64,000 nucleotides of DNA from Saccharibacillus sacchari DSM 19268 (GTDB lineage Bacteria; Bacillota; Bacilli; Paenibacillales; Paenibacillaceae). Below the pieces are notes generated by a model. The model was not told the origin of the DNA. It was given only the letters and a program-made list of their open reading frames with translations, and made no database searches. Location: positions 3,447,307-3,511,306 of the forward strand of contig NZ_KK073875.1 in NCBI RefSeq assembly GCF_000585395.1, written 5' to 3'. The translations under genes were made by a program, and so were the position numbers. Positions 40,438 through 55,406 of the stretch are shown piece after piece. Positions within the stretch are counted from its first letter, which is position 1. Each line of letters begins with the position of its first letter.

Positions 40438-40464
40438 TCGAAATTCAAGAAAGAATGATACTGC

Positions 40465-40619: not shown

Positions 40620-40955
40620 ATGAGAATGGCTTACGAAATACATATTGAAAGAAAAGATGAAGAAAATTCGATCACGATGGAAGAATGGGAAAATTATATC
40701 GAGAACGACAACGAATTAGAGGCGACCGATCATATTGAAATTGAACTTCCAAATGGAATGACGATAGGAATGTCAGGAGAAGGAATGGCTGTTTGGAAGA
40801 AAACGATCGAAGACGAAGAAATTGCAGTGACATTCACCTTTAGAGAAGGTGAAGTATCAGCCCGTTATTTAAATGACAATCAAATTGAAAAAATGAAAGA
40901 TATTGCGACTAAGCTTCAGGCCATCGTAGTAGGGGATGAAGGCGAGGAATATTAA
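40620..40955 (+). CDS. Cassette C2: hypothetical protein
   Basis: A 111-residue acidic soluble protein (MAYEIHIERKDEENSITMEEW...GMTIGMSGEGMAVW). I do not recognise the family. The size and acidity fit an immunity or antitoxin-like protein, but that is a guess. A second ATG two codons later has a similar distance to the weak AGAGAG site. It is the only gene of the cassette 40555-41124. Confidence 0.75.
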   Translation: MRMAYEIHIERKDEENSITMEEWENYIENDNELEATDHIEIELPNGMTIGMSGEGMAVWKKTIEDEEIAVTFTFREGEVSARYLNDNQIEKMKDIATKLQAIVVGDEGEEY

Positions 40956-41034
40956 ATTTAAAGGGAGTATAAAATGCGGGAAATGAGCGGATCATAACTG
41001 AATAGGAATGTTAATCAAAGAAGAGAGGGACATC

Positions 41035-41130
41035 TTATAACATAATATTCACGCTGCGGACATTCGTCCTGGGTCTAGCATTCGCTAGACACCCGACATG
41101 CGTCGAGTCGTGAATACAGAAACGTTATAC
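41035..41130 (+). repeat. attC-like site attC2
   Basis: R'' TTATAAC complements the C2 start GTTATAA. R' is GTTATAC. Second hairpin CTAGC/GCTAG shows a paired change from CCGGC/GCCGG. Confidence 0.92.
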
Positions 41131-41366
41131 GAACATGAACTCCGACGGAAGAACAAGGATAGAGGAAGATCGAAGAGAACGGGAAGTGGATTCACGCGAA
41201 TCTTGGATTGGAAGTTTAGAAGCGTCGAAGAAGGAACGTTTCCATACGGAAACTGATCCATGAATAAGAAATGCGGATTGACTGAAAGGGAAGGTGCGCT
41301 TCCATACGGAAGCAGACTAGATGTGAGTTTGCGGGAGAAAGCTTCGAAGCCCGTCGATTTCACGAC
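41131..41366 (+). other. Cassette C3 body: no convincing gene
   Basis: C3 (41125-41458) is the shortest cassette. The purine-rich body has two hairpin-like copies of TTCCATACGGAA (about 41229 and 41301) and no credible frame on the plus strand. A minus-strand frame running through the attC sites is probably spurious. Confidence 0.5.
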
Positions 41367-41464
41367 CTATAACAAAATATTCACGCGGCGAGCCATGCGG
41401 CTCTGGGTCTGGCAGTCGCCAGACACTCGACAGTCGTCGAGTCGTGAATAAGGGAACGTTATAT
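41367..41464 (+). repeat. attC-like site attC3, 98-bp variant
   Basis: R'' CTATAAC (one mismatch to the C3 start GTTATAC), R' GTTATAT. The first hairpin is GAGCC-ATGC-GGCTC, shared only with attC25. Confidence 0.88.
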
Positions 41465-41502
41465 GAAAGAGATGTACACCCTAAATAAAAAGTGGTGAAT
41501 CT

Positions 41503-41913
41503 ATGGATCTAAACATCGAACAAAATTTCATTAAATTATTTTGCATACCTAGAAAGAGAGAACGATTACATTTTGAATTAAGTTCAACCCGTAAAAGAAG
41601 AGCCGCATTAGGTCGGTTTTCACACCAATTTAAAAACATACTTATTGAGAAATACATGATTGAATTACCCAAACCAAATTCAGATGCAGAAGAAATTTTT
41701 AAATTAATGAAGAGTTATGGAGCTAACGAAGAGGGCTATTGCCTATCCTTTAATCCGGAAATTGACGGAAAGACATTACCTCTATTGGAAGGGCTTCAAA
41801 AAGCAGTCGGATGTGGACTTCCGTCCATCATTCTTTGTGGTGAAAAACTTTGTTATTTTGAATCGGAACAAGAAGTAGGGCCACCAAAGAGATTTGTATT
41901 GAAGCGAGAATAA
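41503..41913 (+). CDS. Cassette C4: hypothetical protein
   Basis: A 136-residue soluble protein, MDLNIEQNFIKLFCIPRKRER at its start and ending in PKRFVLKRE. The middle (LSFNPEIDGKTLPLLEGLQKAVG) has no motif I recognise. The start has only a weak GTGGTG-type site. Single gene of cassette 41459-42038. Confidence 0.75.
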   Translation: MDLNIEQNFIKLFCIPRKRERLHFELSSTRKRRAALGRFSHQFKNILIEKYMIELPKPNSDAEEIFKLMKSYGANEEGYCLSFNPEIDGKTLPLLEGLQKAVGCGLPSIILCGEKLCYFESEQEVGPPKRFVLKRE

Positions 41914-41948
41914 ACATTTGAATGTGAATCAAGGAAGGCATCTCCATC

Positions 41949-42044
41949 ATATAACATAATATTCACGCTGCAGGCATACGCCCTGGGTCCGGCATTTGCC
42001 GGACACTCGACATACGTCGAGTCGTGAATACAGGAACGTTAGGC
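41949..42044 (+). repeat. attC-like site attC4
   Basis: R'' ATATAAC complements the C4 start GTTATAT. R' GTTAGGC. Confidence 0.92.
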
Positions 42045-42074
42045 GAAATCATTGTGAGGAGGAACAATCAAGGA

Positions 42075-42707
42075 ATGAATATTAGAGGAATCATTCTTGA
42101 AGGTTACTCGAATTCAGGAAAAACATCATTGCTTAGAGCCATAAAACAATATCAAGCCCAAGATGAAACTTCAGAATCAAGTGTGGTTATACTTGGAGAA
42201 CATTACTCTCAAATATTGAATAACGTCCATGGAAAGTTAGTCCAATTATCTCAAGAACAACATATCGATTTGTTGAGAAACCGAGTGGATATGATCAAAC
42301 AATTAAATGATTGGGCGAATTTTTTAGGTCCAGGTAGAAGAAAATCTAGAGGCCTCTTTTTTGTGTTAGAAAGATTTCATTTAAATCATCGAGTTGCATT
42401 CTCTGAATCGAATCCTATTGAAATTACAGAACTAGAAAAGCAATTATATGAACTTGGAGCTAAATGCATGTTGCTTACGATTTCAAATGATAAAGCAGAA
42501 GAACGAATAAAGAGTAGAAATTCAGAGGACTGGCTCAATAAATCGAAGGAGTCCATTGAACAGGCGTGTAAAGATTTAATTGAAACTCAAAACATTCTTA
42601 GAATACAAGCAGCAAAGTCAGTAGTACCCACTACGGAAATGAATACAGATCATAAGAATTGGGATGAGTATGCAAGATTAATCATGGAGGACCATGACTT
42701 CGCCTAA
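42075..42707 (+). CDS. Cassette C5: P-loop NTPase / kinase-like protein
   Basis: A 210-residue protein with an N-terminal Walker A, GYSNSGKTS (residues 10-18), after the strand IRGIILE. Later segments (FFVLERFHLNHRV; CMLLTISNDKAEERIKSR) resemble a thymidylate/AAA-type small-molecule kinase, with a Walker-B-like hydrophobic strand. The ATG at 42075 has AGGAGG about 13 bases upstream. The frame is also open from GTG in attC4, giving an MNTGTLGEI extension. The stop overlaps attC5. Substrate unknown. Confidence 0.8.
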   Translation: MNIRGIILEGYSNSGKTSLLRAIKQYQAQDETSESSVVILGEHYSQILNNVHGKLVQLSQEQHIDLLRNRVDMIKQLNDWANFLGPGRRKSRGLFFVLERFHLNHRVAFSESNPIEITELEKQLYELGAKCMLLTISNDKAEERIKSRNSEDWLNKSKESIEQACKDLIETQNILRIQAAKSVVPTTEMNTDHKNWDEYARLIMEDHDFA

Positions 42708-42797
42708 CATAATATTCAAGCTGCGGGCATACGCCCTTGGCCCGGCATTCGCCGGACACTCGACATGCGTCGAGTCGTGAATACAGGAACGTTATAA
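42702..42797 (+). repeat. attC-like site attC5
   Basis: R'' GCCTAAC complements the C5 start GTTAGGC. R' GTTATAA. L'' reads TATTCAAG. Confidence 0.92.
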
Positions 42798-42841
42798 GAA
42801 ATTGCAGGTAAACTAAGTTTAAAACCTAGGGGTGATTTGAA

Positions 42842-43645
42842 CTGATTCATTATAAGCTAAAAAACTGGAGAGATATTATACCTTGGGGAGATGATAATCA
42901 TCGCGTTTTGCATTGGTTTGGTTTAACTGACTCCTATTACTGGTTTGATTTTAAAGGAATCGAGTTTCCGAAATATAGTAAAGCAATCATAAATAAATGG
43001 AATCAAACGAACGACTTGAGGTTTATTGACTATCAGTTTAAGAGAATATTTGAAGATCTTTTTGAAGTGATAAGGCATGTGGAAAATCCAGTGCCGGATA
43101 AAATTTTTCAGGAAATGAGCTCGCTAGAAAAGTTAGAAGACTACTTACAATCCTTACAAGAATGGATTGAATTATCGTGGGATGAGAGTGATAAACAATT
43201 TGATGAAGTTTATGAAGTGGCTCGAGAATGGTTGTACGGCAGGAAGTTGGATTTTGGATATTTAATAGGTGCGCCCGACTGTTTTATGATTAGAAATAAA
43301 AATCAGTTATATATTTATTGGATTACAGAGTATAAAGATGAACAAGGCACTCCATTTTGGGAACAGCCTAAAGGAGTGTTCTCTTGCGATTACCATGAAT
43401 TCATGAGTGACCTAATAGAAAGTTTCAAAGCATTTGGTTTAGATATGCGAGAGCAAATTTCAGATTTATTCAAAAATAAACCCGAAAATTTAAATATAGA
43501 TTGTGAACAGATTATTGCTAGTCAAATTCAATATGAAGAACTGATCATAGAACTCGAAAATAAACGACTATTCTATGCGGATGTCCCAGACTGGAATAAC
43601 GTTCTAAAACAAATGAATGAAATTTCAAGAAATAGAGTTGAATGA
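42842..43645 (+). CDS. Cassette C6: DUF5984-like protein
   Basis: The frame encodes about 267 residues. The N-terminus (KNWRDIIPWGDDNHRVLHWFGLTDSYYWFDF) resembles what I recall of the DUF5984 family, often seen among polymorphic-toxin immunity proteins. There is no ATG in the right place. CTG at 42842 (or ATT at 42845) lies 6-9 bases after AGGGGTGA, and the first conventional start is an internal TTG at 42908. An original ATG may have been lost. Single gene of cassette 42792-43758. Confidence 0.65.
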   Translation: MIHYKLKNWRDIIPWGDDNHRVLHWFGLTDSYYWFDFKGIEFPKYSKAIINKWNQTNDLRFIDYQFKRIFEDLFEVIRHVENPVPDKIFQEMSSLEKLEDYLQSLQEWIELSWDESDKQFDEVYEVAREWLYGRKLDFGYLIGAPDCFMIRNKNQLYIYWITEYKDEQGTPFWEQPKGVFSCDYHEFMSDLIESFKAFGLDMREQISDLFKNKPENLNIDCEQIIASQIQYEELIIELENKRLFYADVPDWNNVLKQMNEISRNRVE

Positions 43646-43668
43646 TTATTCGAGAAGACTGCAACATC

Positions 43669-43764
43669 TTATAACATAATATTCACGCTGCGGACATTCG
43701 TCCTTGGTCTGGCATACGCCAGACACTCAACATGCGTCGAGTCGTGAATACGGGAACGTTATGT
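43669..43764 (+). repeat. attC-like site attC6
   Basis: R'' TTATAAC complements the C6 start GTTATAA. R' GTTATGT. Confidence 0.92.
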
Positions 43765-43796
43765 GAAAAATGACGAAGGAAAGAGGAGGTAGCAGA

Positions 43797-44591
43797 ATGG
43801 AATGGCTAAACGATTTCATGAGTTCTTACTTTCAAGGCAATAGAGAAGAAGCATACAAAATAAAAAAAGAAAATATCCCAAGCAGGCTTTTCAAATTTCA
43901 GCCAATTGAAGATGTGAGAATAAATAGCCTTTTACAAAATGAAATTTGGTTTTCAGTTCCAAAAGAATTGAACGATCCATATGATTGTATGGGAACTTAT
44001 TGGGAAGAGGAAGAAATAGAAGAGATTTTAAGAAAAACTATTTCTTCTGAGAATCTAAAACAACGTTCTACAAATGAAATTATAAATGAAGCTCTTGATT
44101 CTTTACGGGATCACACTAAAATTAGCTGTTTTTCGGAAGAACTTTATAATATGCCAATGTGGGCACATTATGCGAATAATCATCAAGGAATTTGTGTTGA
44201 ATACAACTTTACTTCCTTGAATGCTGGAGTTGATTTCTCCAAAAGTTTATTTCCTGTTGGTTATGAAAAAAATAGATATAATATCACAGACTTATTAAAA
44301 AGAAGTTTTGAAAACTCTAATGACCCTAAAATTCGCTTGTTATATTTTGTGATGCAACTTAAACACGAAAGCTGGAAATATGAGAAGGAATGGAGAATCA
44401 TATTACACACAGAGAATATGAAAAGTGGACTAGTAAGTTCCCCCATTCAACCTACGGCTATATATTTTGGACTAAATTGTAGAGAGTTTGAAAAAGTTGC
44501 AAAAAAGATTAAAGATAAATTTGACTGTCCAATATATAAAATGAGTCTAAATAATTCAAAGTTCTATCATTTAGATATATTAAACCTTTAA
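43797..44591 (+). CDS. Cassette C7: DUF2971 protein
   Basis: A 264-residue DUF2971 protein. Family marks are RLFKFQPIEDVRINSLLQNEIWFSVP at the start, ELNDPYDC, SCFSEELYNMPMWAHYANNHQGICVEY and KHESWKYEKEWRII. The function is not established, but DUF2971 genes are common in defence islands and integrons of other bacteria. The ATG at 43797 follows GAGGAGG with good spacing; the ATG at 43770 lacks a site. Confidence 0.88.
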   Translation: MEWLNDFMSSYFQGNREEAYKIKKENIPSRLFKFQPIEDVRINSLLQNEIWFSVPKELNDPYDCMGTYWEEEEIEEILRKTISSENLKQRSTNEIINEALDSLRDHTKISCFSEELYNMPMWAHYANNHQGICVEYNFTSLNAGVDFSKSLFPVGYEKNRYNITDLLKRSFENSNDPKIRLLYFVMQLKHESWKYEKEWRIILHTENMKSGLVSSPIQPTAIYFGLNCREFEKVAKKIKDKFDCPIYKMSLNNSKFYHLDILNL

Positions 44592-44619
44592 AGTTAATGC
44601 TTCGAAGAAGTCATTCATC

Positions 44620-44715
44620 ACATAACATAATATTCACGCTGCGAGCATTCGCTCTTGGTCCGGCATTCGCCGGCCACTCGACATGCGTCGAGTCGTGAAT
44701 ACGGGAACGTTATGT
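44620..44715 (+). repeat. attC-like site attC7
   Basis: R'' ACATAAC complements the C7 start GTTATGT. R' GTTATGT. First hairpin GAGC/GCTC. Confidence 0.92.
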
Positions 44716-44758
44716 GAAATACCCAAAGTCAAAAACGTAATTAAAGGATGTAAAATGG

Positions 44759-45142
44759 ATGACTGATGACGATTTTGATTACTATACCGATCAAGATTTT
44801 GAATGGACTGGAGTTTTGAACCTATACAGCGGTTCAGAATTTTCAAATCAGAAAGGCACCATTTTTAGAATAGGACTATTACTTGCAGAAGACCTTGAAA
44901 AATCAGAATTGTCTATTTTGAAATCACTTGGGCAGTCATGGACATGGGGAGAAGATCGTCGAATAAAAGCTTTTGAACTGCTGGATTTTCAATACATCAA
45001 TAAAAAGCTTGTTTTTGATTTTAGAACGATTAGAAAGAGTCAAAGATATGATGAGATTAAATACTTCTTATTCGATTTAGGTGCAGGGATCGAAAGTGGA
45101 GGAAACAAGATTGAGGAAATTCAGGTAAGACAGTTGAAGTGA
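44759..45142 (+). CDS. Cassette C8: hypothetical protein
   Basis: A 127-residue acidic protein starting MTDDDFDYYTDQDFEWTG, rich in Asp/Glu, with AGGATGTAAA as a modest RBS. The pattern (short, acidic, EWTGVLNLYSG, SWTWGEDRRIKAFELLDF) reminds me of polymorphic-toxin immunity proteins, but I cannot assign a family. Confidence 0.75.
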   Translation: MTDDDFDYYTDQDFEWTGVLNLYSGSEFSNQKGTIFRIGLLLAEDLEKSELSILKSLGQSWTWGEDRRIKAFELLDFQYINKKLVFDFRTIRKSQRYDEIKYFLFDLGAGIESGGNKIEEIQVRQLK

Positions 45143-45164
45143 TTGTTTTAAAGCCGGGTACATC

Positions 45165-45260
45165 ACATAACATCATATTCAAGCTGCGGACATTCGTCCT
45201 GGGTCTGGCATTCGCCAGACACTCGACATATGTCGAGTCGTGAATACAGGAACGTTAAGT
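45165..45260 (+). repeat. attC-like site attC8
   Basis: R'' ACATAAC complements the C8 start GTTATGT. R' GTTAAGT. Confidence 0.92.
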
Positions 45261-45329
45261 GAAATGAATGAAAAACAAATTGAATATTATAATCTTCTGG
45301 TGATAAGATCGTGAAAAGGGAGGATTTAA

Positions 45330-45686
45330 ATGAGAAAAATAACAGTTACAACACAATTCATTCAAGAGCTATCATTTCTATTGGATAAAGGTGTTAGTTT
45401 CTCAATTGCAGAAGTTCATAAACACATTGAGAACAAGGATGTTATAGATTGGTTAGAATCTGAGTTCCCATTTGGTACAGAGAATGGACTTGATTTTAGT
45501 TTATTTGAACAAAGACATAGAGATTATTTGCACAACGAATTAGAAGCTATATATGGCGGTTACGCAGGCAACGAAAGACGAAAATGGGGGATTGTAAGTA
45601 ACGGATTATGTATACTAATTAGTTGGAGCACAGAAATCATTAGAGATATTTATGGGAGAGATAATAAAACTGGGTGGATTAAATAA
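45330..45686 (+). CDS. Cassette C9: hypothetical protein
   Basis: A 118-residue protein (MRKITVTTQFIQELSFLLDK...HRDYLHNELEAIYGGYAGNE...WSTEIIRDIYGRD). No family recognised. RBS GGGAGGA fits the ATG. It is followed by its own terminator, unusual among these cassettes. Confidence 0.78.
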   Translation: MRKITVTTQFIQELSFLLDKGVSFSIAEVHKHIENKDVIDWLESEFPFGTENGLDFSLFEQRHRDYLHNELEAIYGGYAGNERRKWGIVSNGLCILISWSTEIIRDIYGRDNKTGWIK

Positions 45687-45697
45687 TGTAATTACTT

Positions 45698-45737
45698 AAG
45701 AATGCACTGAACATTTTCTATAAGTGCATTCTTTTTA
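45698..45737 (+). terminator. Rho-independent terminator inside cassette C9
   Basis: AAGAATGCACT (45698-45708) pairs with AGTGCATTCTT (45723-45733), with T run, between the gene and attC9. It would stop read-through from upstream promoters. Confidence 0.85.
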
Positions 45738-45770
45738 ATTTAGAAGCCGTTCTCTAAAGTCATTCACTTC

Positions 45771-45866
45771 ACTTAACATAATATTCACGCTGCGGGCATG
45801 CGCCCTTGGTCTGGCATTCGCCAGACACTCGACATTCGTCGAGTCGTAAATACAGGAACGTTATGT
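45771..45866 (+). repeat. attC-like site attC9
   Basis: R'' ACTTAAC complements the C9 start GTTAAGT. R' GTTATGT. L' carries one change (CGTAAATA). Confidence 0.9.
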
Positions 45867-45996
45867 GTAACTCCCAAGGACGATTAAAAACTTTTTCAAA
45901 CCGAGGTGAATCCTCATTCTTTCTAAATCTTTTTTCATCTTTAAGATCTATCGATTAAAGCGAGAACTACGAATTGTAAAGCCTATATTTGAGATC

Positions 45997-46353
45997 ATGA
46001 CAGACCGGAAAGAGATTTTTATCAACCATTGGGAAGCCCGATCAGAAGCTTATCCTTCACTTCGCGAACCAACTATTCGCGAAGTGTGGGAGTATACGAA
46101 AGAAAAACTAATTGAATTGAAAGCGTATTTAAATACCATGAAGTCAGATCGAAGGACAGAGGAAATCATAAAATTCTACAAAGAACATGTCGAACTACTT
46201 TTGAAAGAGCATCAAAGAGAACAAGAAGAATATCCAGGAAACTACATGTATTTTTACAACGAACTTCTTTTAGGGTCGGAGAGATATCTGACGATCAAAA
46301 ATGAATTAAAGAAATTAGGTTATGAAATCGAAGAAGAGGGGAGCAACACATAA
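45997..46353 (+). CDS. Cassette C10: hypothetical helical protein (first copy)
   Basis: A 118-residue, charged, mainly helical protein (MTDRKEIFINHWEARSEAYP...LKEHQREQEEYPGNYMYFYNELLLG). No family recognised. The TAA stop lies inside R'' of attC10. No strong RBS precedes the ATG, and about 130 bases of cassette leader lie upstream. The full cassette (45861-46437) recurs without visible change as C15. Confidence 0.75.
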   Translation: MTDRKEIFINHWEARSEAYPSLREPTIREVWEYTKEKLIELKAYLNTMKSDRRTEEIIKFYKEHVELLLKEHQREQEEYPGNYMYFYNELLLGSERYLTIKNELKKLGYEIEEEGSNT

Positions 46354-46443
46354 CATAATATTCACGCTGCAGGCATACGCCTTTGGTCCGGCCTTCGCCG
46401 GACACTCGACATGCGTCGAGTCGTGAATACAGGAACGTTAAGT
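46348..46443 (+). repeat. attC-like site attC10
   Basis: R'' ACATAAC complements the C10 start GTTATGT. R' GTTAAGT. Core identical to attC15. Confidence 0.92.
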
Positions 46444-46513
46444 GAAATTCCAGTGAGAGTTATAGGCTTATGAAATGATATAATATAACCATCAAAAAAG
46501 AGGAGGGAAAAAG

Positions 46514-46756
46514 ATGAAGTGGCAAGAAGTTCAACAGATCTTTCCGAATCAATTTGTGAAATTCGAGGTTCTTCATTCAGAAGAAACCGATCATCAAGAG
46601 ATCATTGATGATGTAGCCGTAATTGGCCCGATCAGTGATGAAGAAGCAACTCGCGAATTATTGAATAGCCGAGATAAAACGCTGGTTTATCATACTTCCA
46701 GAAATCAAGTCGTAGTGAAGGTGCGGAAAAATATAGGGTTAAGGAGAAGTCTTTAA
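46514..46756 (+). CDS. Cassette C11, gene 1: small hypothetical protein
   Basis: An 80-residue protein (MKWQEVQQIFPNQFVKFEVL...EEATRELLNSRDKTLVYHTS). From memory, such small proteins are often encoded just before retropepsin-like proteases in Firmicutes, as here. RBS GAGGAGGG is strong. It ends directly before the next ATG, so the two genes form a coupled pair within one cassette. The role is unknown; it may be a partner or substrate of the protease. Confidence 0.8.
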   Translation: MKWQEVQQIFPNQFVKFEVLHSEETDHQEIIDDVAVIGPISDEEATRELLNSRDKTLVYHTSRNQVVVKVRKNIGLRRSL

Positions 46757-47134
46757 ATGAATATTGAATATCGAGACGGACTGTTATTTACGGAAATAAC
46801 AGTCCATTTTAATAAGCAAAAGAAAGTCATATCGAACATCGTGATCGATATAGGAGCCAGTCATAGCTTAATTTCACAAGATGAAGTGGACGAGATCGGG
46901 ATACAAGTGGACATGGACGATGAAATCATAACTAGCTATGGGATTGGAGGTAAAGAGCATGCCTTTAGTAAGAAAATTGAGGGCATACAAGTAGGTGATT
47001 TTATTTTAGAAGATGTATACATCGACTTTACTTCATTCAAATATCACAACATTAACGGACTTTTGGGGCTTGATGTACTGACTGAAGGGGAATTTAATAT
47101 TGATCTAAAGGCATTTAAATTACTTCGTTCATAA
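46757..47134 (+). CDS. Cassette C11, gene 2: retropepsin-like aspartic protease
   Basis: A 125-residue single-domain protein with the active-site-like motif VIDIGASHSLIS (Asp-Ile-Gly-Ala instead of the usual Asp-Thr-Gly-Ala), then GIGGKEHAFSKKI and NGLLGLDVL, the pattern of bacterial retropepsins that act as dimers. RBS AAGGAGAAG lies inside the end of the previous gene. It may process its neighbour or another protein. Confidence 0.8.
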   Translation: MNIEYRDGLLFTEITVHFNKQKKVISNIVIDIGASHSLISQDEVDEIGIQVDMDDEIITSYGIGGKEHAFSKKIEGIQVGDFILEDVYIDFTSFKYHNINGLLGLDVLTEGEFNIDLKAFKLLRS

Positions 47135-47187
47135 GAGATAAAGAAATTAAGAAATTGAATGAGTAATTCGATGGAGACTGGAACATC

Positions 47188-47283
47188 ACTTAACAATATA
47201 TTCACGCTGCGGGCATACGCCCTTGGCCCGGCATTCGCCGGACACTCGACATACGTCGGGTCGTGAATACAGGAACGTTATCC
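47188..47283 (+). repeat. attC-like site attC11
   Basis: R'' ACTTAAC complements the C11 start GTTAAGT. R' GTTATCC. The spacer after R'' is AATA instead of ATAA. Confidence 0.9.
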
Positions 47284-47340
47284 GAAACATCTGGAGAAAA
47301 TAATTTAAGAAATACAAATAATAAAAACGGAGTGATTCAA

Positions 47341-48114
47341 ATGAGAGATATTGATAATTTGAAGAAAATTGCTGTTCTTATTGATGCCGATAATGCTCAA
47401 AAGAAAAAAATCAAATATATTTTTGAAGAAGTGTCTACGAAAGGACATATTATCACTAAAAGAGCTTACGGAGATTGGTCTAATGAAACATTGAAGAATT
47501 GGAAAAATGACTTGAATGAATTGGCAATTCAACCAATGCAGCAGTTCGCATATACGACAGGGAAAAATGCCACTGATTCTGCAATGATAATCGACGCTAT
47601 GGATCTGCTTTATACTAACAAATACGACGCTTTTGTTATTGTTTCAAGCGACAGTGACTTCACTAAACTCGCAACAAGATTAAAAGAATCAGAAGTATTT
47701 GTGATTGGTGTAGGTGAGAATAAGACTCCAATATCTTTTAGAAGCGCATGTGATGAATTCATTTTAACGGAAAATCTAGGTGAAATAAAAATCGAACCGA
47801 TCGTTGAAAAAGACGCCGAGAAAAAAGTGAAAGAAACTTTAACAGAGGATATAAAGGAGCCAGTAAAAGAATCATTAAATGAAGTAATTGGACTGTTATT
47901 AAAAGCTCATGAAAAATACGAGGAAGAAGGTTGGTGCAATGTTAGCGCGGCTGGTTCTTTCATAAAAAGAATAAAACCGGATTTTGATGTCAGAACATTT
48001 GGAGTAACCAAGTTGCCTGAACTACTTGAGCAACTTAATGAAGTTTTTGAAACGGATAGGTACAAAGGAAAAGGTGTAGTTAACATAATCGCTTATAAAC
48101 CTAAAGAAAAATAA
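47341..48114 (+). CDS. Cassette C12: NYN-domain nuclease-like protein with LOTUS/OST-HTH domain
   Basis: A 257-residue protein. The NYN (PIN-like) domain has acidic residues in AVLIDADNAQ (Asp15, Asp17), GKNATDSAMIIDAMDLLY and FVIVSSDSDFTKLATRL. The C-terminal ~75 residues (LNEVIGLLLKAHEKYEEEGWCNVSAAGSFIKRIKPDFDVRTFG) match the OST-HTH/LOTUS fold, which binds RNA. Likely an RNase or RNA-binding protein. The ATG at 47341 is preceded by GGAGTG; the frame is also open from attC11. Confidence 0.88.
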   Translation: MRDIDNLKKIAVLIDADNAQKKKIKYIFEEVSTKGHIITKRAYGDWSNETLKNWKNDLNELAIQPMQQFAYTTGKNATDSAMIIDAMDLLYTNKYDAFVIVSSDSDFTKLATRLKESEVFVIGVGENKTPISFRSACDEFILTENLGEIKIEPIVEKDAEKKVKETLTEDIKEPVKESLNEVIGLLLKAHEKYEEEGWCNVSAAGSFIKRIKPDFDVRTFGVTKLPELLEQLNEVFETDRYKGKGVVNIIAYKPKEK

Positions 48115-48147
48115 TTTTTGTAAGCTACTCAAGAGGACAGATGCATC

Positions 48148-48243
48148 GGATAACATAACATTCACGCTGCGGACATACGTCCTTGGTCCGGCATACGCCG
48201 GACACTCGACATGCGTCGAGTCGTGAATACAGGAACGTTATAC
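48148..48243 (+). repeat. attC-like site attC12
   Basis: R'' GGATAAC complements the C12 start GTTATCC. R' GTTATAC. Confidence 0.92.
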
Positions 48244-48584
48244 GTAATTACGAAGAGCTGATTAAGAGCATTTGAATGATGATCTTTCCTTGAACGACGA
48301 GCCCTTTGATCGGCTCGAAGAAGACGAATTGGAAAAGTAAAAGTGAAATCGAAAACAGATAAGAAATAGGTGAGGGAAAAAACGAATTTAGATTGAAGAA
48401 CGATTGGAAGAAGAGGCATCAAAGAGGTAAACGCCTCGGAGGGAAAACATTTAAAACCAAGTGAAATCCAAAACGAAAACAGTGGGAATGACATTTTAAG
48501 AACAGAAAACATTGAATAAAGTGGAGTAAGACATTAGATATAAGAGTGATTTTGTGAAGCCAATTCAAAGAAGAACGTAACTCC
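48244..48584 (+). other. Cassette C13 body: no convincing gene, homologue of C0
   Basis: C13 (48238-48674) has no supported frame. Most of its length matches C0 with scattered substitutions and indels, including the GAGCC/GGCTC hairpin. The two copies differ enough to be old. Conservation without a frame suggests an RNA or a passive element. Confidence 0.6.
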
Positions 48585-48680
48585 GTATAACATAATATTC
48601 ACGCTGCGAGCATTCGCTCTTGGTCCGACATTCGTCGGACACTCAGCATACGCTGAGTCGTGAATACGGGAACGTTATAC
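48585..48680 (+). repeat. attC-like site attC13
   Basis: R'' GTATAAC complements the C13 start GTTATAC. R' GTTATAC. Third hairpin CTCAGC/GCTGAG is a paired change. Confidence 0.92.
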
Positions 48681-48724
48681 GAAAGAATCAAAAGATTTAA
48701 TAAAAATAAAAGTGAGGTTATGAT

Positions 48725-49582
48725 ATGGAGTCGTCATTCGATACTCAAAAGTTTGTCTCTTCTTTGGGAGAGGAATTAATATACGCATTTAGTAAGTCAG
48801 GAATGACTACTCATCCTCATTCTGTCGGTTCAGGAAGAGAGAGCGCTGCTAAAGTCAAACTTGAGGCTATTTTGCCACCAGGAATAGGTATAGGTAGTGG
48901 TTTTGTAATTGATAGTTATGGAAATACATCAGCTCAGTGCGACATAATTTTATATGAACAAAATTATTCTTTAAAATTTATTATTAACGAAGACAAGGCT
49001 TATACCTATTACAGCTGTGAGAGTGTCATTGCTGTTGGCGAAATAAAATCAAGTGCTTCAATTAGTGATATAGAAGATTCATTTAAAAAGATAAAAAGAA
49101 TTCGTGAATTAAAGAGAAGAATAAGCAGAGAGGATGAAGAGAGCAATTCATTTAGAAAATATTTTTCTAGTATGTCTTTAACAGGAACTGAAGAAGAACG
49201 TTATTCTCAAGATAAAAAGCAATTTGATCAAATATTTACGTTCATCCTTTGCAAAAATTTAAGTACACCTTTAAGCAGTATTAAGAATAAAGCAAGTGAA
49301 ATATTTGATGATTATAGCCAGTACTTTAATTGTATTTTATCAATTGAAGATCTTTACATACAATATGCGAAAATAAAAAATGCTACGGCAGTTGAGCACG
49401 CATTTAGTGCTTTAGAAGCCGATTATATTTTTTCTACTGAAAATGCTGAATTGAATTTTAACTTGTTCATTAAATATTTAACAAGCTTCATTGATAGAGG
49501 TAGAACAGTGCCCCTCGATTATCATCATTATCATTTGAAAGAAGACGCTAATATAAATATTAAAGAACTAATAAATCTGTGA
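48725..49582 (+). CDS. Cassette C14: DUF6602 protein, nuclease-like
   Basis: A 285-residue protein. GSGRESAAKVKLEAILPPGIGIGSGFVIDSYGNTSAQCDIILYE and VIAVGEIKSSAS follow the DUF6602 pattern and the PD-(D/E)xK layout (Asp in QCDII, then Glu-x-Lys in GEIKS). The C-terminus is helical. A DNase role in defence is likely but unproven. The RBS (GTGAGGT) fits the ATG. Confidence 0.82.
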   Translation: MESSFDTQKFVSSLGEELIYAFSKSGMTTHPHSVGSGRESAAKVKLEAILPPGIGIGSGFVIDSYGNTSAQCDIILYEQNYSLKFIINEDKAYTYYSCESVIAVGEIKSSASISDIEDSFKKIKRIRELKRRISREDEESNSFRKYFSSMSLTGTEEERYSQDKKQFDQIFTFILCKNLSTPLSSIKNKASEIFDDYSQYFNCILSIEDLYIQYAKIKNATAVEHAFSALEADYIFSTENAELNFNLFIKYLTSFIDRGRTVPLDYHHYHLKEDANINIKELINL

Positions 49583-49605
49583 TTGTTCCAAGAAGAGATT
49601 CCTTC

Positions 49606-49701
49606 GTATAACATAATATTCACGCTGCGGACATTCGTCCTAGGTCCGGCATTCGCCAGACACCCGACATGCGTCGGGTCGTGAATACGGGAACGTTATG
49701 T
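49606..49701 (+). repeat. attC-like site attC14
   Basis: R'' GTATAAC complements the C14 start GTTATAC. R' GTTATGT. Confidence 0.92.
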
Positions 49702-49831
49702 GTAACTCCCAAGGACGATTAAAAACTTTTTCAAACCGAGGTGAATCCTCATTCTTTCTAAATCTTTTTTCATCTTTAAGATCTATCGATTAAAGCGAGA
49801 ACTACGAATTGTAAAGCCTATATTTGAGATC

Positions 49832-50188
49832 ATGACAGACCGGAAAGAGATTTTTATCAACCATTGGGAAGCCCGATCAGAAGCTTATCCTTCACTTCGC
49901 GAACCAACTATTCGCGAAGTGTGGGAGTATACGAAAGAAAAACTAATTGAATTGAAAGCGTATTTAAATACCATGAAGTCAGATCGAAGGACAGAGGAAA
50001 TCATAAAATTCTACAAAGAACATGTCGAACTACTTTTGAAAGAGCATCAAAGAGAACAAGAAGAATATCCAGGAAACTACATGTATTTTTACAACGAACT
50101 TCTTTTAGGGTCGGAGAGATATCTGACGATCAAAAATGAATTAAAGAAATTAGGTTATGAAATCGAAGAAGAGGGGAGCAACACATAA
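49832..50188 (+). CDS. Cassette C15: hypothetical helical protein (second copy)
   Basis: Same 118-residue protein as the C10 gene at 45997, with no residue difference. The complete 577-bp cassette including its attC core is repeated (49696-50272), and the flanking cassettes differ on both sides. This points to recent cassette duplication and reinsertion. Confidence 0.75.
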   Translation: MTDRKEIFINHWEARSEAYPSLREPTIREVWEYTKEKLIELKAYLNTMKSDRRTEEIIKFYKEHVELLLKEHQREQEEYPGNYMYFYNELLLGSERYLTIKNELKKLGYEIEEEGSNT

Positions 50189-50278
50189 CATAATATTCAC
50201 GCTGCAGGCATACGCCTTTGGTCCGGCCTTCGCCGGACACTCGACATGCGTCGAGTCGTGAATACAGGAACGTTATAG
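50183..50278 (+). repeat. attC-like site attC15
   Basis: R'' ACATAAC complements the C15 start GTTATGT. R' GTTATAG. The core is identical to attC10 while the bases after GTTA differ, as expected for a G/TT exchange point. Confidence 0.92.
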
Positions 50279-50318
50279 GAAATTGACGATACAATAAGAT
50301 ATTTTAAAGGAGGATATT

Positions 50319-51050
50319 ATGGGGTTTCTGAAAAAAATATTTTTTATGAGGCGTTATGAATCATTAGCACCAATTATTAAACGTGGTAAGGATATTTTCA
50401 ATATTGAAGGAGATTACGTAATATTAGAAATGTTGAAAGACCAAGACAATGATTATAGAAAAGAATGGTTTATTCCTTCTGACAAAATAATATTAGGACT
50501 TAGTCGTAGTAAAGAAAAAAACGGAAAAGGATGTAAAGCGAATTGGGAATTTGATTTAAATCCTATGAAAAACGGACGTGTAGTAAGAGCAGAATTAAAT
50601 ATAAAAACATCAAGATCTAACGCAGGGTTACATACTTCAAAAAAGCTTGCCTTAGAAGCACTACATGAAGTGAAAGAAAAAAAGAGAAAGTTACCTAGGT
50701 ATGCAAAAATTAATATTAATAAAAGTGAAGTAGATACTATAGTTCTTCTTTCAAAAATGAATTCGCAATTATTGGATAGTGATTTTCCAGAAGGATTAGA
50801 AAGTTACAAAGACTTTGGCTTTAACAAAATCAACTCTTATGACTTGGTCCCATATTTAAAAGAGGTACGAAAAGAAGATAAGTTATTATTGACTGTTGAA
50901 GTAGATGAAATTGTTTATTGGGACATAGATAGTATATTGATTGAAAATATAGTTCTAGAGAAGTATGAATTGAATCAATTTTTTTGGATGATATTAGGAG
51001 CAGTGATTAGTGCTGCGATTGGTGTTATAGCTTCTTTATTCTTATTATAA
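50319..51050 (+). CDS. Cassette C16: hypothetical protein with C-terminal membrane anchor
   Basis: A 243-residue protein. Most is soluble and basic (EWFIPSDKIILGLSRSKEKNGKGC...NIKTSRSNAGLHTSKKLALEALHEVKEKK). It ends in one hydrophobic helix (FFWMILGAVISAAIGVIASL), so it is probably tail-anchored with the bulk in the cytoplasm. No family recognised. RBS AAAGGAGG. Confidence 0.8.
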   Translation: MGFLKKIFFMRRYESLAPIIKRGKDIFNIEGDYVILEMLKDQDNDYRKEWFIPSDKIILGLSRSKEKNGKGCKANWEFDLNPMKNGRVVRAELNIKTSRSNAGLHTSKKLALEALHEVKEKKRKLPRYAKININKSEVDTIVLLSKMNSQLLDSDFPEGLESYKDFGFNKINSYDLVPYLKEVRKEDKLLLTVEVDEIVYWDIDSILIENIVLEKYELNQFFWMILGAVISAAIGVIASLFLL

Positions 51051-51107
51051 AATTAGGTTTAAATCATATAAGAAATTTGAAGAGGATTCAACGAAGATGT
51101 CAACATC

Positions 51108-51203
51108 CTATAACATAATATTCACGCTGCGGACATACGTCCTGGGTCCGACAGTCGTCGGACACCCGGCATGCGCCGGGTCGTGAATACAGGAACGTTA
51201 GAC
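51108..51203 (+). repeat. attC-like site attC16
   Basis: R'' CTATAAC complements the C16 start GTTATAG. R' GTTAGAC. Hairpins CCGAC/GTCGG and CCCGGC/GCCGGG show paired changes. Confidence 0.92.
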
Positions 51204-51227
51204 GAAATACCTGAAGGAGGAAGAAAT

Positions 51228-51653
51228 ATAAATATTCAGATTCTTGAAGTGGATTTTTCTAAACAGAAAATCTTACAGTCAATTGGATCTAAAGCATACT
51301 GGATCAAATATAGACATGCTCTGATTGAAGGCTTTTGCTATTTTGTTCCATCCTCGGGTAGAGAAATTGAAGTTATGAAGAAATATTCGGTGGAAACCTC
51401 TCAGGAAAAAGTGCTTAGTGTAAGGAAAATTTATAAGGATCATTTGATTACATACAAGTCTCAAATCGATACTTACGAAGTAATAGGGGAAGTGAGTTTT
51501 ATAAGTAAAGATAAAGAAATCATGTTTTTATCAATACGTGATATAGAATTTTGTATTGATAAAGATGAAATTGATATTTCAGAAATAAATATAAAAGATA
51601 ACGTGGAAATAGAAATTAAAGAATTGATTTTATGGGATGTGGGCATCTACTAA
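51228..51653 (+). CDS. Cassette C17: hypothetical protein with non-standard start
   Basis: A soluble protein of about 141 residues (ILEVDFSKQKILQSIG...YRHALIEGFCYFVPSSGREIEVMKKYS...EIEIKELILWDVGIY). AAGGAGG (to 51220) is followed 7 bases later by ATA at 51228, where ATG would be expected. No ATG, GTG or TTG is nearby in frame. The frame runs open from attC16 (MRRVVNTGTLDEIPEGG...), so an attC-supplied start is the alternative. No family recognised. Confidence 0.65.
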   Translation: MNIQILEVDFSKQKILQSIGSKAYWIKYRHALIEGFCYFVPSSGREIEVMKKYSVETSQEKVLSVRKIYKDHLITYKSQIDTYEVIGEVSFISKDKEIMFLSIRDIEFCIDKDEIDISEINIKDNVEIEIKELILWDVGIY

Positions 51654-51668
51654 GAAGTCAGGTACTTC

Positions 51669-51764
51669 GTCTAACATCATATTCATGCTGCGGACATTCG
51701 TCCTTGATCTGGCATTCGCCAGACACTCGACATACGTCGAGTCATGAATACAGGAACGTTATAT
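51669..51764 (+). repeat. attC-like site attC17
   Basis: R'' GTCTAAC complements the C17 start GTTAGAC. R' GTTATAT. The inner stem is TATTCATG/CATGAATA, a compensated change from TATTCACG/CGTGAATA. Confidence 0.92.
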
Positions 51765-52107
51765 GCAACCTGCAAGGCAGATAAAGATTGGAGAAAGATG
51801 AGCTGACAAGGCGCCGAGTTCCCGATCGGCGTTTTTGGTTTAAGGCAAAAGCATTTGAAAAATCAAAGGGACTTACAGGTCACAGAACGATTAAAGTCTG
51901 AGTTCCAGTTTTGAAAGCGGAAGCAGGGTGTCGCTTCCGATCAGGGGAATAAAGAAAAGAAGTTTTGAAAGCATTTTAAACCAAAAGGAATTTGAAAAAG
52001 ATGGAGGGAAAGCTAAAAAATCATTGAAGAAAGACAGAAAGAAAGCATAGAATTGAAGAAGGAAAAGATCGAATAAGATTAAGAGAAATTGGAAGAGTAC
52101 AGGCAGC
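51765..52107 (+). other. Cassette C18 body: no convincing gene
   Basis: C18 (51759-52197) is purine-rich with no supported plus-strand frame. GCGCCGA...TCGGCG followed by TTTTT (about 51811-51837) looks like a terminator close to the cassette start, which would suit a short RNA or block read-through. A second hairpin, GAAGC-AGGGTGTC-GCTTC (about 51921-51938), follows. The size is like C0 and C13 but the sequence differs. Confidence 0.5.
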
Positions 52108-52203
52108 ATATAACATAATATTCACGCTGCGGACATTCGTCCTTGATCCGGCATTCGCCGGATACTCGACATACGTCGAGTCGTGAATACAGGAACGTTA
52201 TAC
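52108..52203 (+). repeat. attC-like site attC18
   Basis: R'' ATATAAC complements the C18 start GTTATAT. R' GTTATAC. Confidence 0.92.
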
Positions 52204-52242
52204 GACAGAACGAAGAATAATATAGATTATAGGAGATTACAA

Positions 52243-53484
52243 ATGGGAGAATATGCATCGATCGGAGTAAGAGAATTTGATTTTTGTGTAAGTAAAAATC
52301 ATATAAATCCAATATGGCTGACTTTATACAGAGAATCAGACAAGAAATTAAAAACAATATTAGATGAAGATAACGAAGAGCGAAGAATATGTGAGTATGT
52401 ATCAACAGTGAAAAATATAAAGCTTCGTCTAGACGTAATGGGTTTTACTTTAAAAAAAGCTAATATTGAATTCGATTTACATAATGAGAGTTCACAACAT
52501 TTTTGGTTTGGAAAAAATCTAAAAGCTGTAGAAGTTGAAATAAAAGAATATAGCTTTGAAAAATGGCTAGAATCTCTAAAAGCTATTGTAAATGCTCCTT
52601 ATAAACACTATTTGGATTACATGGATGACATATCAGTTGAAGATTTCCCGATACAATGTTTTATTATGCGAGAGGATTATGAGGGTGAATCAATATTTGG
52701 TTTTGCAAGTACTGATATTAGATATGTTTTTCGAGCACTATTAGAAGTTTTCGATGAAAATGAAGATTGTAAAATTGATTTTTCTTCACTGGTTGATGGT
52801 GGGTGGTGCTATGAAGACGATAATCTATGCGAAGAAACTTTAAATGCAATTGCAGAGTCTCAAATAAGCAACGATAAAATTATTATTTTAACAGAGGGAT
52901 CTTCTGATATATCCATTCTTAAGCGTAGTATGCAAGTTTTATACCCAGCTGTAGTAGATTACTATTCTTTTATGGATTTTAATACATCAAATGCTTCCGG
53001 GAGCGCGTCTGCATTAGTCACTTATATCAAAGCCTTTATAGGATCAAAGTTAAAAAATAGGATCATAGCAGTGTTTGACAATGATACAGCTGCCAATGAA
53101 GCAATGAGAGGATTAAATAAAGTAGAAGTTCCTAATAACATAAGAGTTTTAACGTACCCCAATTTAGATTCTGTGAAAAATTATCCAACGCTTGGCCCTC
53201 ATGGAATAGTAACTGCAAACATCAATGGATTGGCCTGTAGCATCGAATTATACTTAGGATTCGATATATTAAGGGATGAAAATGGAGAGTTATTTCCTGT
53301 TCAGTGGAAAGGCTATAGTCAATCTTTGAATAAATATCAAGGTGAAATTTTGAATAAAGAATTGATACTTCAAAAATATTATACTTTTTTAAATGATATT
53401 GAGAAAAGTGAAATATTAGATACTAATCATGATTGGTATGGGGTAGATAAAATTCTACAGATGATTTTTAAAGCTTACGAATAA
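52243..53484 (+). CDS. Cassette C19: HEPN/Toprim-associated protein
   Basis: The 413-residue protein starts MGEYASIGVREFDFCVSKNHINP, like the HEPN_Toprim_N domain as I remember it. A Toprim-like core lies in the middle: IIILTEGSSDISILKRSMQVLYP (acidic Glu) and RIIAVFDNDTAANEAM (Asp-x-Asp). This resembles OLD-family and other defence Toprim nucleases. The Gly-His-rich loop GPHGIVTANINGLACSIELYLG follows. The ATG at 52243 has TAGGAGA upstream. Longest single-gene cassette. Predicted nuclease, probably anti-phage. Confidence 0.8.
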   Translation: MGEYASIGVREFDFCVSKNHINPIWLTLYRESDKKLKTILDEDNEERRICEYVSTVKNIKLRLDVMGFTLKKANIEFDLHNESSQHFWFGKNLKAVEVEIKEYSFEKWLESLKAIVNAPYKHYLDYMDDISVEDFPIQCFIMREDYEGESIFGFASTDIRYVFRALLEVFDENEDCKIDFSSLVDGGWCYEDDNLCEETLNAIAESQISNDKIIILTEGSSDISILKRSMQVLYPAVVDYYSFMDFNTSNASGSASALVTYIKAFIGSKLKNRIIAVFDNDTAANEAMRGLNKVEVPNNIRVLTYPNLDSVKNYPTLGPHGIVTANINGLACSIELYLGFDILRDENGELFPVQWKGYSQSLNKYQGEILNKELILQKYYTFLNDIEKSEILDTNHDWYGVDKILQMIFKAYE

Positions 53485-53511
53485 ATTGTGAGAGTAACTC
53501 AATGTTCCATC

Positions 53512-53607
53512 GTATAACATAATATTCACGCTGCGGACATTCGTCCTTGGTCTGGCATTCGCCAGACACCCGACATGCATCGGGTCGTGAATACAGGAAC
53601 GTTATAC
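53512..53607 (+). repeat. attC-like site attC19
   Basis: R'' GTATAAC complements the C19 start GTTATAC. R' GTTATAC. Confidence 0.92.
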
Positions 53608-53650
53608 GCAACCCTAAAATCCTAAAAACAAATAGAAAGAGGTAATTATA

Positions 53651-54118
53651 ATGGCGAGAGTAGCTCAAGCAGACTTTTATTTCGGTGCTGCGTTATCAAT
53701 TTTATTTAATAACAACCATAATATGAAGCTGGCTTTAGTTGAAGGCGGAGAAGACAGAAGAATTTACGACATCTTAACCAATACGGCAAATTACAAAGTG
53801 TATATGAAATACAGATCAAAAACAAATTCTGGAGATGAAAAATATTCAAGTTGGCAGTTCACATTCTCGCAAGAAGATATTAACGAAATTAAAGAGTTTA
53901 GTAATGAGAATTTCAAGATGTTATTAATATGTGGTAAACCTAAATTGAATGAAAGTGAAGTAGTGATATTGCAAGACGATGAAGTGAAGTTGTGTTTAAC
54001 GGAAGCCAACAAAAAGCATTTTACAATTTCCAGAAGAAAAAATGAAAAATACTACAGAATCTCTATGGGTGGGGGAAGAGATAATAGCCTTCAGATTAAA
54101 TCGAAACCATTGGATTAA
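53651..54118 (+). CDS. Cassette C20: hypothetical protein
   Basis: A 155-residue soluble protein (MARVAQADFYFGAALSILFNNN...LALVEGGEDRRIYDILTN...SSWQFTFSQEDINEIKEF). The N-terminal layout suggests a small nuclease- or methylase-associated fold, but no motif is decisive. RBS AGAGGT. It is followed by 75 bases of AT-rich DNA before attC20. Confidence 0.75.
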   Translation: MARVAQADFYFGAALSILFNNNHNMKLALVEGGEDRRIYDILTNTANYKVYMKYRSKTNSGDEKYSSWQFTFSQEDINEIKEFSNENFKMLLICGKPKLNESEVVILQDDEVKLCLTEANKKHFTISRRKNEKYYRISMGGGRDNSLQIKSKPLD

Positions 54119-54193
54119 ATTAATTGTTTAGATTCCAAAGTATATTCAAACTTAATTGTAAAAGAAAAATGTAATTTCAACTGCAAGGGCAGC

Positions 54194-54289
54194 GTATAAC
54201 ATAATATTCACGCTGCGGGCATACGCCCTTGATCCGGCAGTCACCGGATACTCAACATACGTCGAGTCGTGAATACAGGAACGTTATAG
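54194..54289 (+). repeat. attC-like site attC20
   Basis: R'' GTATAAC complements the C20 start GTTATAC. R' GTTATAG. Two hairpins carry unpaired changes (CAGTCACC, CTCAAC). Confidence 0.9.
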
Positions 54290-54349
54290 GAAATCAACTG
54301 AAGTGCGAAAAACTATTTAAAATATAATTCAGCTTGTTGGGGGATATTG

Positions 54350-55207
54350 ATGAGCTACATCGATATGAAATATATAAGTACTTATTATTATGCCAATGTA
54401 ATACAAGGTGTTATTGAAAATCCATCTAATTACTTAGTGAATCTAGAAAGCATTTTCGGGGATTCTGGAATCTTGAATTATATAGAACCGTTCAAAAAAA
54501 GAAGTAATCTTCACGTGTTCATTGAATTTATTATTGATTCATTATTTTGGGAGCAGTATTCAAAATTAAAAATTTCAAACTGTATCGATAGATCACATTT
54601 TGATTTTAGTAACCTTAGATATATTACGCCTTTAGAAGAGATATTTGTTGAATACGGAGTAGATCATTTGTCTTTTATGGAATGGTGGGAAGAATCGGAA
54701 GAAGATGTTTTAGAGGAAAGACATTTTGAAGAATATTATCAAGAGTTAGTTCTTTTAGAAGGTTATTATGAGGTCATTGAACTGCTCTCAGAGGATGTCT
54801 TTTATATTTTATTTTTGAATCGAAAATTTTTACAAGAGTTTAATGAGATTTTTTCTTCATATTTAAGCATGTGTGAAGGAGATGACTTTGCAATAGAATA
54901 TTCAAAAGAAAGTTCTTTGAAGCATCACTTAAGAAAGGATTGTAAGTTAAAGCGTGTTAGCATTCCATCATGGGTGAAAAAAGCAGTATATTTTAGAGAT
55001 AGAGGTGCTTGTACAAAGTGTGGGAAAGACTTAAGTGGATATTTATCTTTAGAAAATAAAGAAAACTATGATCATATAATTCCATTGAATTTATACGGAT
55101 TTAATGATGTGACTAATATTCAGTTGCTGTGTAAAGAATGCAATTCTGAAAAGAGCGGTTATAAACATGCTACTGAAACTAGATACCAAAGTTGGTATGA
55201 GAAATGA
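54350..55207 (+). CDS. Cassette C21: HNH endonuclease
   Basis: A 285-residue protein with a helical acidic N-terminal region and a C-terminal HNH domain: VYFRDRGACTKCGKDL, YDHIIPLNLYGFND and NIQLLCKECNSEKSG. The two Cys pairs should bind structural zinc, and Asp-His in DHIIP and the Asn in VTNIQLL are the catalytic set. Probably a restriction-like DNase. The ATG at 54350 follows GGGGGA. Confidence 0.9.
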   Translation: MSYIDMKYISTYYYANVIQGVIENPSNYLVNLESIFGDSGILNYIEPFKKRSNLHVFIEFIIDSLFWEQYSKLKISNCIDRSHFDFSNLRYITPLEEIFVEYGVDHLSFMEWWEESEEDVLEERHFEEYYQELVLLEGYYEVIELLSEDVFYILFLNRKFLQEFNEIFSSYLSMCEGDDFAIEYSKESSLKHHLRKDCKLKRVSIPSWVKKAVYFRDRGACTKCGKDLSGYLSLENKENYDHIIPLNLYGFNDVTNIQLLCKECNSEKSGYKHATETRYQSWYEK

Positions 55208-55283
55208 ATATACAAATTTTAATAAAAGAGAAGTTTGAGAATGAAATGAAAACTTGAAGTATCTCGGAGAAGATGTTGACATC

Positions 55284-55379: not shown

Positions 55380-55406
55380 GAAATTATTTAATATCGAGGA
55401 GAAAAT

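Follow-up and report, generated by a model that had tools for sequence, protein, structure and literature searches.

An exactly duplicated gene cassette in an integron-like array of Saccharibacillus sacchari

The 64,000-nucleotide stretch of Saccharibacillus sacchari DSM 19268 analysed here (contig NZ_KK073875.1, positions 3,447,307 to 3,511,306; hereafter the window) carries an integron-like array of gene cassettes, designated A1, which spans about 29 kb from 38863 to about 68350 in the coordinates of the window plus locus L020, and thus runs approximately 4.3 kb past the window end. Within this array one cassette is present twice on the plus strand, at 45861-46437 as the 11th cassette and at 49696-50272 as the 16th, with four different cassettes in between (46438-49695, plus strand, starting at 46438, 47278, 48238 and 48675). 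A preliminary description of this DNA had presented the two units as identical, 3.8 kb apart and differently flanked, and a base-by-base comparison bore this out, as 577 of 577 positions agree with 0 differences, the starts lie 3835 bp apart and the flanks outside the repeat are unlike. Chance cannot account for an exact match of 577 bp.

The maximal exact match is 586 bp long (45855-46440 versus 49690-50275, plus strand), gaining GGAACG to the left and TTA to the right of the 577-bp unit, and it stops there without running beyond the exchange site into the neighbouring cassettes. Both ends fall within the shared GGAACGTTA, as had been claimed; the left flanks read AATACA at copy 1 and AATACG at copy 2, and the right flanks AGTGAAATTCC and TAGGAAATTG, respectively. 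Each copy holds an open reading frame (ORF) of 118 amino acids (aa) at 45997-46353 and 49832-50188 (plus strand), identical in both, for which no Pfam family was found above cut-off. Each also terminates in its own attC site, of the arrangement R''-L''-three hairpins-L'-R', located at 46343-46446 (plus strand, 120.2 bits, and among the sequences used to build the attC model) and 50178-50281 (plus strand, 116.6 bits), the second of which differs from the first only in the R' part contributed by the next cassette.

Searching the genome, which is assembled in one contig (6,075,237 bases, completeness rated at 100%), with the duplicated cassette returned 42 matches and no third exact copy. A third full-length relative, 85% identical over 577 bp, is located at 5505930-5506506 on the minus strand in another array, A2, while the remaining 39 of the 42 matches concern only the attC end of the query (base 440 onward). 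Among the 160 cassettes compared, the duplicated cassette forms the sole exact within-genome pair, other such pairs being 84-95% identical. Relatives are also present in two other Saccharibacillus genomes, G012 and G014; one G012 copy is 83% identical over the body and the other 90% over the ORF, and the G014 relative is 59% identical as a protein. The ratio of non-synonymous to synonymous substitution (dN/dS), with an ATG start assumed, is 0.108/0.557 against the A2 copy and 0.062/0.300 against a G012 copy, and values of about 0.2 point to purifying selection on the 118-aa ORF. A plasmid collection searched with the cassette gave no match and viral contigs searched with the attC core pattern gave no exact match, so that no carrier was found. 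The absence of any difference over 577 bp puts the 95% upper bound for the divergence of the two copies at about 0.5% (3/577), whereas the upstream flank of A1 is 6-8% different in the sister genome G006; because of this disparity the duplication would be much younger than the split from G006, given equal rates and no gene conversion.

Well-kept attC sites are approximately 104 nucleotides long and comprise R'' (NNNNTAAC), a spacer, L'' (TATTCACG), three short hairpins, L' (CGTGAATA), CAGGAAC and R' (GTTANNNN), the last belonging to the following cassette. The cassettes thus each end in an attC with R''/R' and L''/L' elements and a conserved GTT core, which is a defining trait of integrons. 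The attC model (R1) has 32 plus-strand matches in the window, 29 of which are among the 40 model-building sequences, and 44 matches genome-wide at E<=0.001; a search of 38500-64000 against Rfam gave 0 matches at E<=0.1. Folding energies of the five strands folded lie at z -4.3 to -5.7 relative to shuffles. In the 40 sites, pairing is seen in 91.1% of 1400 cells; changes on both sides affect 15 pairs (9.2 in shuffles) and 81 cells (34.2 in shuffles, with 0 of 500 shuffles as high), and four of the five measures of paired change exceed those of the shuffles. The attC therefore folds as a single strand with a structure that is conserved by paired changes, as is characteristic of integron sites.

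The R'' at the end of an integron cassette pairs with the start of that same cassette, and the two meet only in the circular form. In the three arrays of this genome, R'' is complementary at 9 of 9 positions to the start of its own cassette in 30 of 47 cassettes and to the next start in 3 of 47. A wider sample, taken from 22 stretches of 13 genomes, yielded 160 cassettes in 19 stretches and 11 genomes, the other two genomes contributing no cassette; 16 of the 160 were left out for want of a readable R''. In the remaining 144, the four variable bases agree with the start of the same cassette in 98 and with that of the next in 12, compared to 8.9 on average, and never more than 22, in 2000 shuffles. 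Since it is predominantly the start of its own cassette that R'' matches, the cassettes are best regarded as units that move as circles, and since the variable bases to the right of the core travel with the cassette, the cut would lie at or to the left of GTTA. Comparison of the attI and attC junctions (AAGACG-TTA and GGAACG-TTA) appears to narrow it to the shared ACGTTA. Cutting between G and TT, as previously proposed, is consistent with these data and would hold by analogy with integrons, but the sequence itself gives an interval of 6-9 bp, the attC sites resolving only the conserved 9 bp and the attI junctions 6 bp.

The head of A1 is an attI-like site (38777-38865, plus strand) with direct repeats (TTCGTGAATA) at 38777, 38813 and 38848, spaced by 36 and 35 bp, the last of which forms the core TTCGTGAATAAGACG-TTA (38848-38865) and leads into AAGACG-TTA. 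A scan with the attI pattern of the window, L020 and L017 (188 kb, both strands) gave one match, the A1 site, and a putative attI thus stands next to the array, as integrons have it. The same arrangement of repeats and core is found directly behind the recombinase of array A2. Of the 12 Saccharibacillus genomes that match the recombinase, 11 have the gene, in some cases broken, just upstream of an attI-like core and on its strand; the core (<=3 mismatches) follows the match at a distance of 50-158 bp. The exceptions to the complete arrangement are G006, which has no core, G012 and G005, which have the last repeat only, and G014 and G011, in which the contig ends soon after. Similar cores also head arrays that have no recombinase next to them, namely A1, A3 (L019), L075, L076, L077, L078 and L081, and the S. 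sacchari genome itself contains three attI-headed arrays (A1, A2 and A3) and one recombinase gene of this kind. In G006, locus L062 7178-9300 (equivalent to L025) presents a rearranged array head in which the attI core behind the recombinase is absent and two attC sites are inverted (8841 and 9175, minus strand).

No recombinase was found beside A1, the nearest TIGR02249 match being a weak one to a 140-aa frame 71 kb away, and the array accordingly has the form of a CALIN (a cluster of attC sites lacking a nearby integrase). The best match of the genome to the integron-integrase family is a 384-aa tyrosine recombinase (5508351-5509502, minus strand), situated upstream of A2 and on the same strand as that array; genome matches to this protein at E<=1e-40 number one, located 2 Mb from A1. 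It scores 203 bits on TIGR02249, below the cut-off of 265, and 210 bits on NF040815 (cut-off 220), which is its best NCBIfam score, and its best PDB sequence match is 4a8e. TIGR02249 positions 181-232 are unmatched in it. The spacing from the K-motif to HxLRH is 59 residues in 25 of 25 family recombinases examined, these being open frames chosen from 101 recombinase-positive genomes, as opposed to the 100 residues of IntI1 and of two Bacillota IntI proteins (in a third one examined the motif was not found). The protein ends in an SPLD motif, as does IntI1, and begins with an extension of about 105 aa (residues 1-105; L018 8348-9502) without a Pfam match; 24 of the 25 family open frames are at least 368 aa long, and the extension is also aligned by matches on two Chryseobacterium plasmids and one Phocaeicola plasmid.

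In a tree of 40 rows the 25 family recombinases form one clade (support 100/98), apart from four IntI proteins (100/99) and also separate from three recombinases of other kinds from the same genome. Only these two fully supported clades were used, since long branches meet and deeper joins are unsure. An AlphaFold model (mean predicted local distance difference test score, pLDDT, of 69.8) was considered as an arbiter between Xer and IntI affinity and not relied on, as it is mediocre and its PDB matches (the XerA-like 4a8e, IntI4 2a3v and XerA 5hxy) do not decide the matter. A recombinase of Saccharibacillus endophyticus, of the family Paenibacillaceae, is 94% identical to the 384-aa protein, and it is on this identity that the genus and family names given here to relative genomes rest, as an inference. 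The recombinases of G199 and G243 (L086 and L088), which belong to another genus, group tightly with those of Saccharibacillus, and this grouping, supported at 100/100, suggests transfer of the platform between genera.

The attC model R1 matches 15 of 16 Saccharibacillus genomes (1 to 44 matches each) and, at E<=1e-4, 158 of 295 sampled family genomes; as a control of specificity, 18 of 299 class genomes match at E<=1e-8, all 18 from Paenibacillaceae. Recombinase matches are present in 12 of the 16 Saccharibacillus genomes, some of them defective (fragments with stops in G002 and G004, a gene split by one stop in G005, and one without the N-terminal part in G012), and at E<=1e-45 in 101 of the 295 family genomes, fragments and genes with stops counted. 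Both components occur in 91 of these genomes, attC alone in 67, the recombinase alone in 10 and neither in 127, corresponding to an odds ratio of 17 (Fisher p 2.5e-21); stricter attC calls gave 70/36/31/158 (odds ratio 9.9, p 1.4e-17). Both statistics ignore kinship, and the weaker recombinase matches (38-42% identity) may include other recombinases. The ten genomes with a recombinase and no R1 match (G042, G064, G069, G074, G108, G129, G131, G177, G181 and G288) may have diverged attC sites, or a few weak matches among them may be other recombinases. TIGR02249 matches above cut-off were obtained in 2 of 398 Bacillota genomes.

Further afield, R1 found nothing in nine distant recombinase loci (L026-L034), and a generic R''/R' scanner was too weak for them, giving zero sites even in L025, where R1 gives five (on their own strands). 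Two of these loci, L027 and L030, were read by eye, and a classic attC-like array was recognised in L027 only. This locus (1900-9269), from a Bacteroidales metagenome-assembled genome, encodes a patch-less recombinase of 44% identity, behind which lie one GTTATGGGC site and four sites of classic attC appearance (GCCCATAAC ... GTTATGGGC, with variants), and would represent a similar system outside Bacillota.

The flanks of the three arrays (upstream only for A1, one or both for A2 and A3) are 92-96% identical to those of one G006 array each, and the three-array layout is for that reason probably older than the G006 split. The interiors of the arrays have few cassettes in common with those of G006 and their order is not kept: in A1 the cassettes starting at 38863 and 48238 match L075 8268 and 11133, that at 46438 matches 15739 and that at 56526 matches 6504. 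Across genomes, 32 cassette pairs are 75-98% identical over >=60% of their length, and cassette order differs where checked (A1 versus L075). We also considered whether A1 is a mere degenerate integron, and rejected this, as G006 has an attI-headed array without a recombinase at the same upstream flank.

The remainder of A1 is likewise read on the plus strand. Its first cassette (38863-39305) is followed by cassettes 2-10 (39306-45860) as core-to-core units, and downstream of the second copy further core-to-core units with attC model matches occupy 50273-63310, the attC sites being decayed in the last part of the array. From 39306 on there are 34 units, of which 33 measure 334-1404 bp and one 2872 bp, and in 30 of the 34 the longest ORF lies on the plus strand. 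Cassettes without a clear plus-strand ORF are the first, which has no long ORF, that at 48238-48674 and also 51759-52197. The first two, 90% identical, constitute an older, diverged pair with relatives in G006 (L075 8268 and 11133), which argues that such an ORF-less cassette is kept and spread. Genes resembling anti-phage genes were noted with PADLOC at 39349-40437, 43770-44591, 48725-49582 and 58134-59144, the likenesses being to a PD-T4-6-like kinase (its kinase domain match being a generic one), PDC-S31 (DUF2971), a PD-DExK/NucC-like DUF6602 protein and AbiTii; ten cassette proteins were scanned, of which five had any match.

As the likeliest cause of the exact duplicate we propose, with a good degree of confidence, integron-type copy-and-paste of one mobile cassette by a recombinase acting in trans. 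The repeated unit would be one mobile cassette, with its 118-aa ORF and own attC, in an integron-like array; the tyrosine recombinase approximately 2 Mb away, upstream of A2 with attI and attC sites of the same kind, would act on A1, excising a copy of the cassette from the folded single-stranded attC, which would then be reinserted at another attI or attC core. Duplication of cassettes through copy and paste is known for IntI1 (PMC8024014). In integrons the exchange involves the bottom strand of a folded attC alone, and since the junction is resolved by replication, a cassette can be inserted anew with the donor still in place (PMC8024014, PMC8946536). Because integron excision is semi-conservative and is finished by replication, the donor copy could likewise remain here and the cassette be present twice; the expected outcome would be an exact duplicate, not adjacent to the donor and ending within the core. 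The sites, the position of the gene and its co-occurrence with attC suggest that this recombinase performs the reaction and does so in trans on A1; the single-stranded route and the recency of the event we infer.

A number of observations weigh against this proposal. The duplication is seen in the sequence and the activity of the recombinase is predicted from it, and neither copy stands first in the array, where insertion at attI would place a new one, although internal copies fit two insertions at attI that later insertions pushed inward, or an attC x attC insertion. The enzyme has no IntI-specific additional domain, an insert thought necessary in IntI, and the genome contains other tyrosine recombinases, with 13 TIGR02249 stretches below cut-off. 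Of the 158 attC-positive family genomes 67 have no recombinase match, G003 with 11 attC matches has none either, and 10 of the 101 recombinase-positive genomes have no attC match. Finally, further pair types in the attC test were not raised (29 versus 32.6, with 495 of 500 shuffles as high).

The preliminary description had regarded the repeat as direct evidence of recent movement or copying. Such movement is indeed the best reading, because the unit is complete with its own attC, its boundaries lie at the exchange core and its neighbours differ, but "direct evidence" is an overstatement, as gene conversion of an older pair could give zero differences too. An old duplication held identical by RecA-type conversion is nevertheless unlikely: its tracts would stop where homology stops, that is at the same core, and an older 90% identical pair does exist in the array (38863 and 48238), yet that pair has not been homogenised, uninterrupted perfect homology between the copies is limited to 586 bp, and the first duplication would be left unexplained, with a mobile cassette still needed. 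Slightly less improbable, though still doubtful, are two separate captures of the same cassette, from outside or from another array, with insertion at attI at two times. Cassettes are common to several species, and this one has relatives in A2, G012 and G014; however, both captures would need to be identical over 577 bp, whereas the known relatives (A2 at 85%, G012 at 83% over the body and 90% over the ORF, G014 at 59% as protein) are not, and the plasmid collection gave no match. The search covered that collection and 16 genus genomes, beyond which a closer source may exist.

The tens of attC repeats in the array could recombine with one another, and crossing-over between them might have duplicated a whole segment, the other duplicated cassettes being lost later; we consider this very improbable, given that the cassette is the only one in the stretch with an exact copy and that several exact deletions would be required. 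Least probable of all is an assembly artefact. The repeat was judged from the assembled sequence, but a single 6.08 Mb contig rated 100% complete, with two spaced copies between unlike neighbours, makes such a fault hard to credit; assembly faults at repeats usually collapse copies rather than set one between different neighbours.

Copy-and-paste of a single cassette thus remaining the favoured explanation, the system may be compared with those already described. With integrons, including sedentary chromosomal ones, it shares tandem cassettes of mostly one gene each, attC sites with R''/L''/L'/R' and a GTT core, an R'' that fits the start of its own cassette, an attI-like head with direct repeats and core, a tyrosine recombinase beside one array, and the sharing, shuffling and duplication of cassettes. 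Canonical integrons have their integrase in divergent orientation to the array and an attC with one terminal structure, whereas here the recombinase is upstream of the array on the same strand, the attC has three hairpins and several attI-headed arrays exist per recombinase gene; moreover, the Saccharibacillus recombinase is without the insert specific to IntI and stays below the TIGR02249 cut-off. A1 resembles CALIN, as described in PMC8618304, in having no adjoining recombinase, but differs in keeping an attI-like head, in the matching recombinase elsewhere in the genome and in the attI-headed, recombinase-less array at the same upstream flank in G006. An affinity to XerA/XerC-like proteins (NF040815; PDB 4a8e and 5hxy) is evident in the best NCBIfam score, the best PDB sequence match and the short, insert-free spacing; the placement apart from three other recombinases of the genome, the N-terminal extension, the IntI-like SPLD ending and the adjoining cassette array set it apart from these. 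The copy-and-paste of resistance cassettes by IntI1 (PMC8024014) similarly duplicates one cassette at a non-adjacent place, but there the new copy takes the first position under selection, while here both copies are internal and no selective pressure is known.

Duplicated cassettes are known but rare, being reported in 5% of those INTEGRALL integrons that have at least two cassettes (PMC8024014); the duplication by itself is ordinary, and it is the platform that departs from known integrons. According to PMC9668308, the canonical integron integrase is defined by an additional domain that is considered necessary, and because the recombinase lacks this domain the system is best classed as integron-like, outside the canonical family. 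The IntegronFinder 2.0 paper reports one complete integron in Firmicutes and a few CALIN (PMC9024848), and a review names Firmicutes among the integron-bearing phyla (PMC8618304). In the titles and abstract beginnings of the open-access papers listed, no described Paenibacillaceae integron was found, and nothing was found there that combines integrons with Saccharibacillus.

On balance, and with moderate confidence, we favour the view that Paenibacillaceae own an unrecognised integron lineage, in which one recombinase without the additional domain would serve several attI-headed arrays in trans through attC sites with three arms; in Bacteroidota, attC arrays of the ordinary kind may be served by related recombinases that are likewise patch-less. 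Were this so, integron recombination would not depend on the domain that it is said to require, and the Bacillota would not be integron-poor. With genes related to this sub-cut-off recombinase, some of them in fragments or with stops, in 101 of 295 genomes, 91 of which also have matching attC sites, cassette shuffling would be extended to a large Gram-positive group. The system would also be a naturally occurring example in which several arrays are supplied by one recombinase, and for its activity the exact duplicate would be a ready marker.

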